Shown here piece by piece: positions 9,606 to 13,634 of a stretch of 20,677 bases of DNA. The DNA comes from a virus, in the IMG/VR virus record IMGVR_UViG_3300020456_000084, positions 1 to 20,677 of that record, one strand, 5' to 3'. Below the pieces are notes generated by a model. The model had not been told where the DNA came from and searched no databases. It saw nothing but the letters and a program-made list of their open reading frames with translations. The translations under genes were made by a program, and so were the position numbers. Positions within the stretch are counted from its first letter, which is position 1; the number at the start of each line of letters is the position of its first letter.

Positions 9606-9819
9606 ACTGACAACACTAGGTCTTTATCTGGTAAAATTCTTTCAGGTGGTGGTGATGAATTGTATTCATCCCACCAATTGGGACGCTTGTGGTCCTGTAG
9701 AACAATGGTTGATTCCTGAACTTGTCCATGGATGGAAGATTAAGACAGGAGAGATAGTACCTTACCAGACTGAGAAGGACTATCTAAATAGTATCAAAAA
9801 CAATGGCAGTCAATATTGA
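9592..9819 (+). CDS. Hypothetical protein (75 aa)
   Basis: ATG 9592 (or 9595) lies within the Asp-rich end of the previous gene, and the reading frame ends 17 nt inside the next gene. The N-terminus is hydrophobic (LTTLGLYLVKFFQVVVMNC). The middle (HPTNWDACGPVEQWLIPEL) contains W, C and P residues that look like a folded small domain. I chose ATG over an upstream TTG. It fills an otherwise empty gap of about 200 nt, and I do not recognise a family. Confidence 0.55.
   Translation: MMTIELTTLGLYLVKFFQVVVMNCIHPTNWDACGPVEQWLIPELVHGWKIKTGEIVPYQTEKDYLNSIKNNGSQY
9783..9790 (+). promoter_or_regulatory. Possible late promoter variant (TCTAAATA)
   Basis: TCTAAATA differs from NATAAATA at one position and lies 12 nt before the ATG at 9803. 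It is within the coding region of the preceding ORF, so it could be chance. If it is used, the transcript would have a leader of only a few bases. Confidence 0.25.
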
Positions 9820-10666
9820 TCCAATCGGATTGTATGGTGATGATCCAGATTACGAAGATTGGGCTAAAGATTCCTTTGGAAAACAGATGAACCTTGGGTT
9901 CATCTATGAAAATAAATTGTTCTCTCAATATAAAGATGTTGGATTAGTACCTTCTGGATTTACTCCTGCTGGTGCTGACTCAACTGCTGCTGACTTAGAA
10001 TTGTGGACGGGGAAATATGCTTCTAGAAATCAAACACCAAAGACGGGATCTAAGATAAAGATCGAAGTAAAACTAGATCCTAATGCTGATTATGGACAGG
10101 CTAGTTTGAAACATAATGGTTCGTCATGGGTATTATCTGGCAAGAGCACTGCAGAAGCATTGGAGATGAGAAAGCTTCTGAATAATATGAATGTTGTGTC
10201 TGAGATAAACAAAGCTTGGCCTGGACAACCTAATCTTTTTAAATATGCAAATAGTAATCTAGTTCCCGCAGCAGAGAAAGCATACGATCAAGAAACTTTT
10301 AGGAGTTCTTATATTTCTGGATCAGGATTTGCCAGAACCTTTTCTAGTTACTATAGTTCTAAGGGAGTACATTACATTCAGATTGGTGGGTATGGATTAT
10401 ATTCTTTGAATCAAGATCCAAATGGATTGAAGAATCTAGGAGTGACATCTTTTCTCCAATCTGGAGCATCGATGAAACTTAGAATACGTGTCAAAGGATC
10501 TAAATCAAAAGGAACATATCGTTTTTCTACTGCTCTCTTGATGGACAAGCCACCTAGAAGATCTGGATTTGATCTTGATGATGAAGGTGCTTTAGAAACT
10601 TTAAGATGGGATGCTGTTGAGTGTAACAATGCACCGTATCAACTGAAGAACCAGTCACTTGGATAA
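9803..10666 (+). CDS. Putative PD-(D/E)XK-fold nuclease-like protein (287 aa)
   Basis: I do not recognise a named family. The N-terminal third has the order of residues seen in PD-(D/E)XK nucleases: a helix with E36 (GFIYENKLF), a strand with D64 (TAADLELW), a strand with E88-V-K90 (KIKIEVKLD), and Q99 just after (DYGQASL). E-x-K on a beta strand followed by a helix with Q is typical of this fold. The C-terminal half (FRSSYISGSGFARTFSSYY onwards) is beta-rich and ends with RIRVKGSKSKGTYRFSTALL. There is no clear ribosome-binding site, and the start overlaps the preceding ORF by 17 nt. The stop lies just before the ligase-like gene, so the two are probably co-expressed. It could instead be a structural protein. 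Confidence 0.5.
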   Translation: MAVNIDPIGLYGDDPDYEDWAKDSFGKQMNLGFIYENKLFSQYKDVGLVPSGFTPAGADSTAADLELWTGKYASRNQTPKTGSKIKIEVKLDPNADYGQASLKHNGSSWVLSGKSTAEALEMRKLLNNMNVVSEINKAWPGQPNLFKYANSNLVPAAEKAYDQETFRSSYISGSGFARTFSSYYSSKGVHYIQIGGYGLYSLNQDPNGLKNLGVTSFLQSGASMKLRIRVKGSKSKGTYRFSTALLMDKPPRRSGFDLDDEGALETLRWDAVECNNAPYQLKNQSLG

Positions 10667-10699
10667 GTGTCCACACTTCCACTACTGGAGGAGAATCCG

Positions 10700-11881
10700 A
10701 TGTATAATAAGGGTATGAAAAACACACACCTGGAACACCTGGAAGACGAGATCCTCAACCGTGGCAGTGCGGGTGCAGATGATGTCATTTCGGTTCTTCG
10801 TTCAGCAGATGACATTCTGACTGGTAAGTCCAACGATCTTGGTATCACCACCAAGTGGGATGGTGCTCCTGCTGTTGTCTGTGGCACCTGTCCTCAGACT
10901 GGTAAGTTCTTTGTTGGCACCAAGTCTGTCTTCAACAAGACTACTCCTAAGATCTGCTACACAGAAGCAGACATTGATCAGTGGTATCAGGGTGCTCTGG
11001 CATCCAAACTCAAGACCTGCCTTCGGTATCTGTCACAACTGCGCATCATTGGTATTGTGCAGGGTGATCTTCTGTTCACTGACGATGTGATTCCTGGTGT
11101 CATCGGCAAGAACAAGGTTCTTACTTTCACCCCTAACACCATCACCTACACTGTACCTGTTGGTTCTGAAGCTGCTAATCAAATCATGGTAGCAAAGATG
11201 GGTATTGTGTTTCACACTACTTACATCGGTCCTTCTATTCAGACTGCCGAGGTTGTTATTGGCACTCCTGACATCCGTGGTTCTGAGGATGTGTTCGTTG
11301 CTAGTGCTAAGTTTGATGGATACGTGAAAGTGTCTGATGCTCAGATTCGTCACTATCGAGCACTGGTCAATCGTGCTGCTGGTTCTATCAAGCAAGCATC
11401 TAACTTCCTGGACATCTTTAATTCTGGAGAGTCTAGGTTTGTCATGGCAGCAATGTTCAAGCAGTTCTTCAACCAGGTGGTTCGTAAGGGATACATTGTC
11501 CGCAGCACTAAGTATGTTGCCTCAGAATTTGCTAACTTCTATGCTTCTAAGATGGAAAGTGAGATCCAGTCTAAGAAGTCCGATGCGGCAAAGGCTAAAT
11601 ATTTACGGATGAAAACAGATGGACTTAAGTTCATCATAGCAAATGAACGTGCTATCTATTTCACGGTAGCATCTTACCTCAACATTCGATCTGCTAAAAA
11701 GTTTGTCATCGACCAACTTAATAGTGGTGGCACTATCGGCACTTACACAAGGTCCAAGAAAGGGTATCAACGTACTACCCCTGAAGGTTTTGTTCTCGTC
11801 AAGTCTGGTGGTGCTTATAAATTTGTTGATGACAACTTCCGCCGTGCTAATGTCACCGTTGTGAAAAACTGGGATAAATGA
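10700..11881 (+). CDS. Ligase-like covalent nucleotidyltransferase (KxDG family), conserved phage protein
   Basis: ATG 10700 is preceded by GGAGGAG (10687-10693) at ideal spacing, so I prefer it to the in-frame GTG at 10667. The 393-aa protein shows motifs in the order of the DNA/RNA-ligase and capping-enzyme superfamily. TTKWDGAPAV holds motif I KxDG, with K52 as the likely nucleotide-accepting lysine. FFVGTKSVFNK resembles motif Ia, and GIVQGDLLF resembles motif III. TPEGFVLVK (E362-V365) resembles motif IV and AYKFVD (K374) motif V. Known members join RNA or DNA ends or transfer NMP via lysine-NMP. A second DGYVKV occurs before a helical insert. I recall the family from T4-like phages as uncharacterised. 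The stop overlaps the next gene (ATGA), an NMNAT-like enzyme. Confidence 0.65.
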   Translation: MYNKGMKNTHLEHLEDEILNRGSAGADDVISVLRSADDILTGKSNDLGITTKWDGAPAVVCGTCPQTGKFFVGTKSVFNKTTPKICYTEADIDQWYQGALASKLKTCLRYLSQLRIIGIVQGDLLFTDDVIPGVIGKNKVLTFTPNTITYTVPVGSEAANQIMVAKMGIVFHTTYIGPSIQTAEVVIGTPDIRGSEDVFVASAKFDGYVKVSDAQIRHYRALVNRAAGSIKQASNFLDIFNSGESRFVMAAMFKQFFNQVVRKGYIVRSTKYVASEFANFYASKMESEIQSKKSDAAKAKYLRMKTDGLKFIIANERAIYFTVASYLNIRSAKKFVIDQLNSGGTIGTYTRSKKGYQRTTPEGFVLVKSGGAYKFVDDNFRRANVTVVKNWDK

Positions 11882-13065
11882 AGAGTTTTACTAGATTCCT
11901 TTCAGAAACAGTTACCCAAGCAGCCACCCAAGCCAAGAGATTAGGTCTCAAAGGTGATGGACATGGCGGGTGGGTTAACGCTCAGGGTTCAACCGTTGCC
12001 AGAACTGTCGATGGTAAGTTGGTTTTTTCTAGTGGTAGGAGACCGTCAACAGGAACTGACCCAGAAAAACCAGGTGCTGCTGCAAGACAAGCAGTTCCCG
12101 ATGAAGCACCTGCTGCTCAAGGAGGAGAACAACCACAACAGCAGGAACCAGAACCAGAACAGGAAGTTGAGAAGACTAGAGGTACAGTTACTCTTGGTTT
12201 CGGTCGTTTCAATCCACCAACTGCCGGACACGAAAAACTGTTAGATAAGATTCAAGATACTGCAGAGGGTGAACAGTATTATGTTTACCCATCCCATAGT
12301 CAGGATGCCAAGAAGAATCCATTAGATTCTGAGACTAAGGTGCAGTTCATGAAGCAGATGTTCCCTGCTCATGCCAATTCGATTGTATATGATTCATCGA
12401 TTAAAACTATTTTAGATGCATTGAAGCAAGCTGATGTCGAAGGATATGCCTCTGTCAATATCGTTGTTGGTGCTGACAGACAGAAAGAATTTGAGAACCT
12501 CGCAAACAAATACAACGGTCAACTCTATAATTTTGACCAGATTAACGTCATCTCTGCAGGGGAACGGGATCCCGATGCTGAAGGGGTCGAGGGTATGTCT
12601 GCTTCGAAACTTAGAAAGTTAGTTGCAGATGGTGATGCAGAAGGATTTGCTGCTGGTTTGCCTAAAGGTGTGAAACCAGATCTGGCAAAGAAACTGTATG
12701 CTACTCTTGCCAAGAGCATGTCTGTCAAGGCAGAGACCTGGGAGATTGCACCTAAGTTTGATTGGAAGAACCTGCGTGAGAATTATATTGCAGGTAAGGT
12801 ATTCAATGTTGGTGCTCTGGTTGAGAGTCTGAATACTGGAATGATTGGTAGAGTTATTCGTAAGGGTGCTAACCATATCATTGCCGTCACTAAGGAAGGA
12901 CTGATGTTCAAGTCCTGGATTCGTGATCTTACAGAAACATTTACAGACAAGTCTGGTGTACCTGCATCCCAACGTGGAATGGGAACAGATTCATATCGCA
13001 ACTATGTTACTGGATTATCAGCAGAAGCAAAACTTAAGTCTCTGATAAATAGAAACAAGAAATAA
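11878..13065 (+). CDS. NMNAT-like nucleotidyltransferase with an N-terminal capsid-targeting-like peptide
   Basis: This 395-aa protein has three parts. Residues 1-10 (MKSFTRFLSE) match the T4 internal-protein capsid-targeting peptide pattern (MKTYQEFIAE in T4 IPIII), which is cut by gp21 after I/L-x-E. Residues 14-55 form a small Gly-rich domain (KRLGLKGDGHGGW), followed by a Pro/Gln/Glu linker up to about residue 98. From residue 103 a Rossmann-like nucleotidyltransferase domain begins. FGRFNPPTAGH supplies the T/HxGH motif (T115-H118), GADR lies at 198-201 and MSASKLRK (240-247) is the ISSTxxR-like motif. Such enzymes adenylylate NMN or similar substrates. The C-terminal region after about 275 is unassigned. 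Start overlap (ATGA) ties it to the ligase-like gene. Confidence 0.8.
   Translation: MKSFTRFLSETVTQAATQAKRLGLKGDGHGGWVNAQGSTVARTVDGKLVFSSGRRPSTGTDPEKPGAAARQAVPDEAPAAQGGEQPQQQEPEPEQEVEKTRGTVTLGFGRFNPPTAGHEKLLDKIQDTAEGEQYYVYPSHSQDAKKNPLDSETKVQFMKQMFPAHANSIVYDSSIKTILDALKQADVEGYASVNIVVGADRQKEFENLANKYNGQLYNFDQINVISAGERDPDAEGVEGMSASKLRKLVADGDAEGFAAGLPKGVKPDLAKKLYATLAKSMSVKAETWEIAPKFDWKNLRENYIAGKVFNVGALVESLNTGMIGRVIRKGANHIIAVTKEGLMFKSWIRDLTETFTDKSGVPASQRGMGTDSYRNYVTGLSAEAKLKSLINRNKK
13044..13051 (+). promoter_or_regulatory. Candidate late promoter (GATAAATA)
   Basis: GATAAATA fits NATAAATA exactly and lies 26 nt before the ATG at 13077, with a predicted start near 13057. It sits inside the last codons of the NMNAT-like gene. 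The spacing to a start codon makes it a reasonable late promoter for the EF-hand gene. Confidence 0.5.
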
Positions 13066-13076
13066 ATCTAAGTAAG

Positions 13077-13634
13077 ATGTCTGATAGTTTTATTCAGGAA
13101 AATTCTGAACTCATCATGCTGCGTGCGATGTCCAACGTCTTCGTTGAGAAGATGGATCCTGTTGGACAGGAAGATGGTGATGTAGATAATGATGGTGATA
13201 AGGATAAGTCTGATAAGTATCTGCTGAAGCGTCGTAAGGCAATCGGTGATGCAATCTCGCGTAAAAAAAAAGTAACGGAGGGTGTGGTTGCGACCACTGA
13301 TGAGGACGAGAAGGAAGTAACTGAGAAGAATGTAAAGAATAAAGTCACTATCAATCCTGAAATGAAGGAAGGGTATGATAAGCCTGACGAGAAGTTGAAG
13401 ACTGATCGTGATATGTTTAATGTTCCTAAGGATGAGCAGAAGGCAGCACGTAAGAGAATTCTTGCTAAGGCATTAGCAAAGAGAAAGGAAAAGGGTATCA
13501 AGGAAGCAACCTATCCTTCAGACTTTAGGAATCCTGATGGTTCTAAAAGATCTGTTGCCAGGAAAAAGGATGGTATGCCTAAGCAACATGACGAGCCCAC
13601 AAGGGGTGGTCGTAGAAAGACTGTTGACGAATAG
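13077..13634 (+). CDS. EF-hand-like, highly charged phage protein (185 aa)
   Basis: Residues 35-46 (DVDNDGDKDKSD) form a complete 12-residue EF-hand or dockerin-type calcium loop, with Asp at positions 1, 3, 5, 7, 9 and 12 and Gly at position 6. It is flanked by VGQEDG and by basic KYLLKRRKAIG. The rest is extremely rich in Lys, Glu and Asp, with almost no hydrophobic core, and is probably disordered or coiled. This composition resembles phage prohead-core or internal proteins. Only one full loop is present, so a paired EF-hand is not supported. It probably binds Ca2+ or Mg2+ within the virion or during assembly, but this is inference. Confidence 0.75.
   Translation: MSDSFIQENSELIMLRAMSNVFVEKMDPVGQEDGDVDNDGDKDKSDKYLLKRRKAIGDAISRKKKVTEGVVATTDEDEKEVTEKNVKNKVTINPEMKEGYDKPDEKLKTDRDMFNVPKDEQKAARKRILAKALAKRKEKGIKEATYPSDFRNPDGSKRSVARKKDGMPKQHDEPTRGGRRKTVDE

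Follow-up and report, generated by a model that had tools for sequence, protein, structure and literature searches.

The T4-like cyanophages rank among the commonest viruses of the ocean. Homologues of T4 gene 30, whose product gp30 serves the T4 replisome as DNA ligase, were not found in cyanomyoviruses; the available part of a 2010 review (PMC2984593) allows for distant unrecognised homologues or for none, and judges the latter to be more probable. Among described enzymes, the protein considered here is best compared with the nick-sealing RNA ligase of Naegleria gruberi, the T4 RNA ligases Rnl1 (RnlA) and Rnl2 (RnlB), and RLIG1 (C12orf29). RLIG1, which lacks an RNA-binding domain, ligates RNA; one lysine is named for its motif V, its motif IIIa contains a His, and a viral RLIG1 homologue has the Naegleria RNA ligase as its best Dali match (PMC11494293, in the part available). 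The gene in question occupies positions 10700..11881 of a stretch of viral DNA of 20,677 nucleotides (the window; IMG/VR record IMGVR_UViG_3300020456_000084, probably a fragment); this gene, its motifs and the genes directly up- and downstream of it lie on the plus strand. Its product, a DUF6267 protein of 393 residues with a ligase-like covalent nucleotidyltransferase core, may be the ligase that T4-like cyanophages were thought to be without.

The product was assigned to Pfam family DUF6267 (PF19782) with an E-value of 2.3e-112 and 376.5 bits, against a gathering cut-off of 27 (hmmscan), and to PHROG 455, where no function is given. The nucleotidyltransferase motifs I, Ia, III, IIIa, IV and V are all present in the correct order. 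Motif I is KWDG (10853..10864), with K52 as the predicted nucleotidylated lysine. It is followed by motif Ia, G73-T-K-S76 (10916..10927), motif III, Q121-G-D123 (11060..11068), motif IV, E362-G-F-V365 (11783..11794), and motif V, K374-F-V-D-D (11819..11833), which is preceded by Y373. An earlier note, made from the letters of the window, had named these five motifs, and reading of the sequence places each of them where it had said. H172 (11213..11215) is probably the histidine of motif IIIa; its equivalence to that of RLIG1 is drawn from the order of the motifs. This residue, the Asp of motif III, the partner protein described below and the link to the missing cyanophage DNA ligase did not figure in the earlier note.

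Conservation was examined in an alignment of 234 rows, comprising 223 complete unfused loci, the window and 10 phage records; 225 of the sequences are distinct, and these fall into 56 clusters at 60% identity. The loci came from three alignment-based scans of viral contigs, with the best 80 taken from each (240 loci in all, out of a larger number that exist). Seventeen of the 240 open reading frames, four fusions and 13 ended by a contig edge, were removed before counting, and three other loci were not used. K52, D54, G55, K75, D123 and H172 are each present in 225 of the 225 distinct sequences. E362, G363 and K374 are present in 224, the remaining sequence (L069) having a gap at these positions. 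The conservation of K52, E362 and K374, on which the earlier note had staked its proposal, thus holds. The loci had been retrieved by peptide patterns at motif I, motif Ia and the N-terminus, by which K52 and K75 were partly selected; D123, H172, E362 and K374 were not. The complete motif set was also found in all 10 phage records chosen from 471 tblastn matches obtained without patterns. Over the 234 rows the invariant residues are K52, D54, G55, P57, G62, K75, F78, D123, Y150, H172 and N258, joined by E362, G363, K374, F380 and N384 except for one gap.

Two motifs depart from the usual form. Known members of the covalent nucleotidyltransferases carry Glu in motif III; in the DUF6267 proteins Asp123 stands there in 225 of 225, so that the acidity is retained. 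Motif V has the family consensus K-L-V-D/N-R, and the K-x-K form is absent, position 376 being V in 225 and I in 8 of the 234 rows, with one gap. At position 378, 230 of the 234 rows have Arg and the window has Asp. Between motifs IIIa and IV lies the long helical insert that the earlier note had also recognised; it spans residues 213-341 (11336..11722), as delimited by DSSP on the predicted model and by insert lengths. In the long type (149 rows) a median of 191 residues separates the H172 block from E362. The insert is shorter in the short type (85 of 234 rows), where the median is 127.

AlphaFold predicted the window protein with a mean local confidence (pLDDT) of 92.9 and a predicted template modelling score (pTM) of 0.89, using 130 sequences as input. 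Since a Z-score near 8 can reflect a common arrangement, a short-type relative of 297 residues (L095) was folded too, with a pLDDT of 92.1 from 61 sequences. Both models were compared with PDB chains by VIA-align, the window model with the first 1000 chains returned by Foldseek, and 50 rows were tabulated for each; PDB families outside these tables may match as well. For the window model RNA ligases occupy the top eight rows. The best is the Naegleria RNA ligase (Z 8.1, 4.0 Å, 180 residues), whose match spans residues 7-387 of the model. A ligase is named in 34 of the 50 titles, and three further chains from nonhomologous end-joining complexes are presumably ligase IV, judging from their numbering. 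For the short relative the top row is again the Naegleria RNA ligase (Z 8.4, 3.6 Å, 175 residues). A ligase is named in 48 of its 50 titles; the remaining rows are one chain from a nonhomologous end-joining ligation complex and one from a human structure of co-transcriptional capping. The nucleotidyltransferase core fold was thus found by VIA-align in two predicted models. The predicted fold is not an unrelated one, and the divergent nucleotidyltransferase branch proposed by the earlier note agrees with both the best structural matches and the invariant motif residues. The two models and the ordered catalytic residues constitute strong evidence for a ligase-superfamily fold, as distinct from activity.

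The resemblance to known ligases is closest in the core. In most rows the Naegleria RNA ligase (5cot, 5cou, 6vt0-6vtg) is matched from residue 143 or 146 to 339, the end of the chain, and the DUF6267 protein likewise ends after motif V. Identity is about 10%, and the first 140 residues of the ligase are unmatched in most rows. At the motif III position the Naegleria enzyme has Glu, where DUF6267 has Asp; we take the residue to be E227, which is mutated to Ala in the title of one entry. T4 Rnl2 has the core fold in common with DUF6267 (Z 6.8, 177 residues, 4.3 Å). However, Rnl2 (317 residues in 2hvq) continues past the matched core, which ends at 234, whereas DUF6267 does not, and profile similarity between the two is undetectable by hhalign, a comparison of low power. 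With T4 Rnl1, motifs IV and V are in register, PEGFVLVKS-GGAYKFV aligning with IEGYVAVMKDGSHFKIK, in an alignment that is not significant; Rnl1 carries the second motif V lysine and DUF6267 does not. By its published description RLIG1 has parallel motifs throughout, namely K-D, a basic motif Ia, an acidic motif III, a motif IIIa His, a motif IV Glu and a motif V Lys, although motif III of the viral RLIG1 is Glu174 instead of Asp (PMC11494293, in the part available). DNA ligases of the gp30 type (PF01068) also share the core fold, the T4 ligase 6dt1 giving Z 5.2 over 165 residues at 4.5 Å. Unlike them, DUF6267 has no OB domain, and no DNA-binding domain was recognised in its chain. After motif V the model has a single closing helix (residues 378-386 of 393), and a C-terminal OB domain with motif VI is absent.

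By tblastn, DUF6267 was found in 471 of 50,697 phage records, of which 371 are named Synechococcus, 61 Cyanophage and 24 Prochlorococcus, with a few others. The neighbouring gp41 helicase gave 376 Synechococcus and 61 Cyanophage records at an E limit of 1e-30. Because these tallies are nearly equal, DUF6267 appears to be close to universal in the T4-like cyanophages. The earlier note had described the gene as conserved in T4-like phages; this is correct for the marine T4-like group, while T4 itself is without DUF6267. A few Stenotrophomonas and Xanthomonas records carry it, and the 37 loci matched in a genome collection, mostly in metagenome bins, look viral in origin. T4 gp30 matched 2,520 records, and Synechococcus is outside their ten commonest names, the tenth of which has 53.

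A whole-record search for the PF01068 DNA ligase gave no match in 10 Kyanoviridae records. All five other genomes searched, T4, Vibrio EniLVp02, Pseudoalteromonas XG4 and the jumbo phages CBB and Cassandra, contain it. PF01653, PF09414 and PF09511 were not found in any of the eight Kyanoviridae records searched for them. DUF6267 was detected by profile in nine of the 10 Kyanoviridae; the tenth, S-MbCM25, has it as an annotated gene under cluster T4-GC_71, to which the S-SSM7 gene also belongs. No mention of DUF6267 or PF19782 was found in the literature searched, mostly outside subscription journals, and an earlier description may exist. In the available part of PMC7824862 (2021), the section on RNA repair treats RtcB, Rnl1, Rnl2 and some rare, divergent ligases of actinophages; DUF6267 is not among them.

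On this evidence DUF6267 very probably belongs to the covalent nucleotidyltransferase superfamily and has its fold, as judged from the models. A lysyl-nucleotidylation activity is predicted with good confidence, and a nick-sealing polynucleotide ligase is the probable form of that activity. The prediction that its main substrate is DNA rather than RNA is tentative and falls a little short of an even chance. The complete reading, a divergent polynucleotide ligase that acts by the lysyl-AMP route and substitutes for gene 30 in the Kyanoviridae, is favoured with moderate confidence. K52 would form lysyl-AMP by attack on the alpha-phosphate of ATP (or NAD+), with D54, D123, H172, E362 and K374 binding the nucleotide and metal. 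The AMP would then be transferred to a 5'-phosphate and the nick sealed. In the Kyanoviridae, less certainly, the enzyme would work on phage DNA in replication and recombination in place of the gene 30 product. DNA binding, for which classical ligases have a domain of their own, would then fall to the helical insert and perhaps to a separate protein, DUF6433 (see below). Such a ligase would answer the absence, stated in the available part of PMC2984593, of a homologue of the T4-replisome DNA ligase in cyanophages. A function would thereby be assigned to the Pfam family tallied above (371 records for Synechococcus, 61 for Cyanophage and 24 for Prochlorococcus phages), and the enzyme would possibly represent a small ligase that lacks the OB domain.

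Several observations weigh against this assignment. Foldseek alone gave no significant PDB match for the window model: the best E was 0.19, to an unrelated chain, and the best rows listed are not ligases. For the short relative the first 11 Foldseek rows are all ligases, yet their E-values of 0.09 to 0.54 (best 0.091) are not significant. On VIA-align's own scale, Z values near 8 count as middling. Helical chains of Hsp70 score Z 5.7 to 6.7 over about 72 residues, the highest (6.7, 73 residues) level with the 6.8 of T4 Rnl2 over its 177 residues, and 13 of the 50 rows for the window model are unrelated proteins. The closest structures are RNA ligases rather than DNA ligases. An Asp in motif III, the missing second Lys of motif V and the absent OB domain also speak against a conventional ligase. 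At the sequence level, hmmscan lists DUF6267 alone up to an E of 1, with no match to PF01068, PF09511 or PF09414. The profile comparison with RNA ligase families, suggested by the earlier note as a check, was accordingly negative, and hhalign against single T4 RnlA, RnlB and gp30 sequences gave probabilities below 2%. Against alignments of Rnl1 and Rnl2 the probabilities were 1.1% and 0.2%, with unrelated families reaching 1.0%; the positive control, Rnl1 against Rnl2, failed too, and because it gave only 5.3% the method is without power at such distances. Host ligase can replace gp30 in T4, according to the available part of PMC2984593. The Vibrio phage EniLVp02 and the Pseudoalteromonas phage XG4, both outside the cyanophage group, encode a DNA ligase, Rnl1 and Rnl2 as well as DUF6267, so that its role is not replacement everywhere. 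Finally, the Kyanoviridae are one clade, whose common gene content is not independent evidence.

The alternative that survives best, though it is rather unlikely, is an RNA-repair ligase resembling T4 Rnl1 or RLIG1, which would mend broken tRNA or other RNA through lysyl-AMP as a counter-defence against anticodon nucleases. Its nearest structures, the Naegleria RNA ligase, T4 Rnl2 and tRNA ligases, are what this explanation would predict, and the motif set of RLIG1, with a motif IIIa His and no separate RNA-binding domain, matches that of DUF6267 (PMC11494293, in the part available). However, T4 polynucleotide kinase/phosphatase, which is normally needed to repair nuclease-cut tRNA, was not matched in any of 10 Kyanoviridae, which argues against a repair pair of the T4 kind. 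The gene is located in a replication block, and EniLVp02 and XG4 already have both Rnl1 and Rnl2.

The gene downstream of DUF6267 (11878..13065) encodes a nucleotidyltransferase of the HxGH type with 395 residues. It matches Pfam CTP_transf_like above the cut-off (E 1.2e-5) and phrog_395, and its HxGH motif is GRFNPPTAGH (12202-12231). In 23 aligned sequences GR..PP..GH, K-x-P and S..K-x-R are invariant. The protein weakly resembles the adenylyltransferases of nicotinamide or nicotinic acid mononucleotide (NMN/NaMN) and the pantetheine-phosphate adenylyltransferases (PPAT), with NCBIfam scores below the curated cut-offs; the one score above a cut-off was to the general cyt_tran_rel model, for locus L216. 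Such enzymes differ from DUF6267 in both fold and chemistry and occur as its adjacent or fused partner. The stop codon of DUF6267 overlaps the start of this gene (ATGA, 11878-11881), and the two are therefore probably translated together. Of the 764 positions of the PHROG 455 profile, the first half matches DUF6267 and the second half the next gene's protein, a first sign that the two occur fused. Four fusions were found: two are clear (L188 and L194), L199 has a weak match to a nucleotidyltransferase profile, and L216 was identified by a Pfam match over the cut-off. The fused HxGH domains are apparently of more than one kind. Among distinct loci with room downstream, the HxGH gene lies within 1.5 kb in 100 of 127 of the long type (107 of 134 with duplicates) and in four of 76 of the short type (4 of 78); room was defined as only 450 bases, and some of the misses may be contig ends. 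All 10 DUF6267 genomes searched, four of the short type included, encode the protein, even at a distance of 100 kb. Its tallies, 374 for Synechococcus, 61 for Cyanophage and 24 for Prochlorococcus, resemble the 371, 61 and 24 of DUF6267, but it occurs in about 60 further records. DUF6267 and the adjacent or fused HxGH adenylyltransferase likely serve one pathway.

This partner bears on two further proposals. In the first, a split ligase, the DUF6267 core and a separate DNA-binding protein, DUF6433, would meet at the nick, and the HxGH enzyme would supply or regenerate the adenylyl donor. In its boldest form the ligase would be NAD+-dependent, with the HxGH partner remaking NAD+ from the released NMN. 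We know of no precedent for a split ligase accompanied by an enzyme that recycles its cofactor, and the proposal is improbable as a whole. Most jumbo phages of subgroup 2.1 have no known DNA ligase, yet they encode the DNA-binding domain of a ligase as a protein by itself; in P-SSM2, a phage named as prototypical of that subgroup for surface-gene clusters, this is AAX44695.1, and recruitment of a host ligase has been proposed for them (PMC7824862, in the part available). Our scan places AAX44695.1 (38440-39063 of the P-SSM2 locus, L441) in DUF6433 and phrog_461. A PDB search with it gave no match of note; its kinship to ligase DNA-binding domains is that reported in the available part of PMC7824862. 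A single-sequence query found DUF6433 in 10 of 10 Kyanoviridae without PF01068 and in none of five genomes with it; over the phage records it is tallied 374 times under Synechococcus, 61 under Cyanophage and 24 under Prochlorococcus. In the favoured reading, too, DUF6433 is proposed as a partner of DUF6267, which it would perhaps assist in DNA binding. The co-occurrence is suggestive only, because the Kyanoviridae hold most core genes in common.

In the second proposal DUF6267 is not a ligase, and the acceptor of its AMP or GMP would be a protein, a small molecule or the 5' end of an RNA, with the HxGH adenylyltransferase in the same pathway. This is slightly less probable still. The Asp of motif III, the loss of the second motif V lysine and the absence of the OB domain would fit such an enzyme, as would the four fusions and the presence of the HxGH protein in all 10 DUF6267 genomes searched. 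However, RLIG1 ligates with one named motif V lysine and no RNA-binding domain (PMC11494293, in the part available), and the pairing is not reciprocal, the HxGH protein occurring without a DUF6267 match in both jumbo phages searched, CBB and Cassandra. A dead nucleotide-binding or structural protein that has retained the fold is very improbable, the presumed catalytic residues being among the invariants of the family. A likeness of short motifs by chance has a very small probability: KxDG and EG[FY]V are indeed short, and sequence searches of the PDB found no ligase (best E 0.94 with the protein and 0.065 with the family profile, to unrelated chains), but two fold comparisons oppose it, and on the sequences such an origin of the motif set is excluded because the motif residues are conserved across relatives.

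The open frame of the DUF6267 gene extends from a GTG at 10667, which would give 404 residues. The ATG at 10700, which gives the version of 393 residues, is preceded by a ribosome-binding-site-like GGAGGAG (10687..10693) and is the better start. The neighbours in the window read from the sequence as gp43, UvsX, gp41, a DnaG-type primase and nrdA/nrdB, in agreement with the annotation of relatives. DUF6267 is flanked by genes of a gp41-like helicase and a gp61-like primase, named by our own reading, in the window and in DSL-LC02; in Vibrio EniLVp02 it sits between a DnaB-like helicase and a DNA primase.

The gene directly upstream (9803..10666) encodes 287 residues with the PD-(D/E)xK nuclease pattern E36...D64...E88-x-K90...Q99, and had no match in Pfam. 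All five pattern residues are kept by 79 of 79 relatives in the alignment; one of the two search patterns contains E88-x-K90. The gene 5' of DUF6267 varies between phages. Among 80 loci of the upstream family, 71 had room, and DUF6267 follows directly in just nine of these. A fixed cassette of nuclease, ligase and nucleotidyltransferase was therefore dropped, the upstream gene being exchangeable.

The HxGH protein starts with MKSFTRFLSE (11878-11910), which we take to resemble the N-termini of proteins that T4-like phages target to the head, and it might be packaged in the virion. In cyanophage records (L006, 5721-5996; L009, 6775-7056; L439, 2773-3918) the HxGH protein, or else the small gene that follows, is annotated as a ribonucleotide reductase subunit, probably a misannotation. 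Elsewhere in the window, positions 894-2069 encode a protein of 391 residues (PHROG 15918, function unknown) with a GQHR segment read as ParB-type-like. The protein at 13077-13634 has a VDNDGDKDKSDKYLLKRRKAI segment that also matches portions of several other phage families, one of them a cytidyltransferase family, and the segment looks like a mobile domain.
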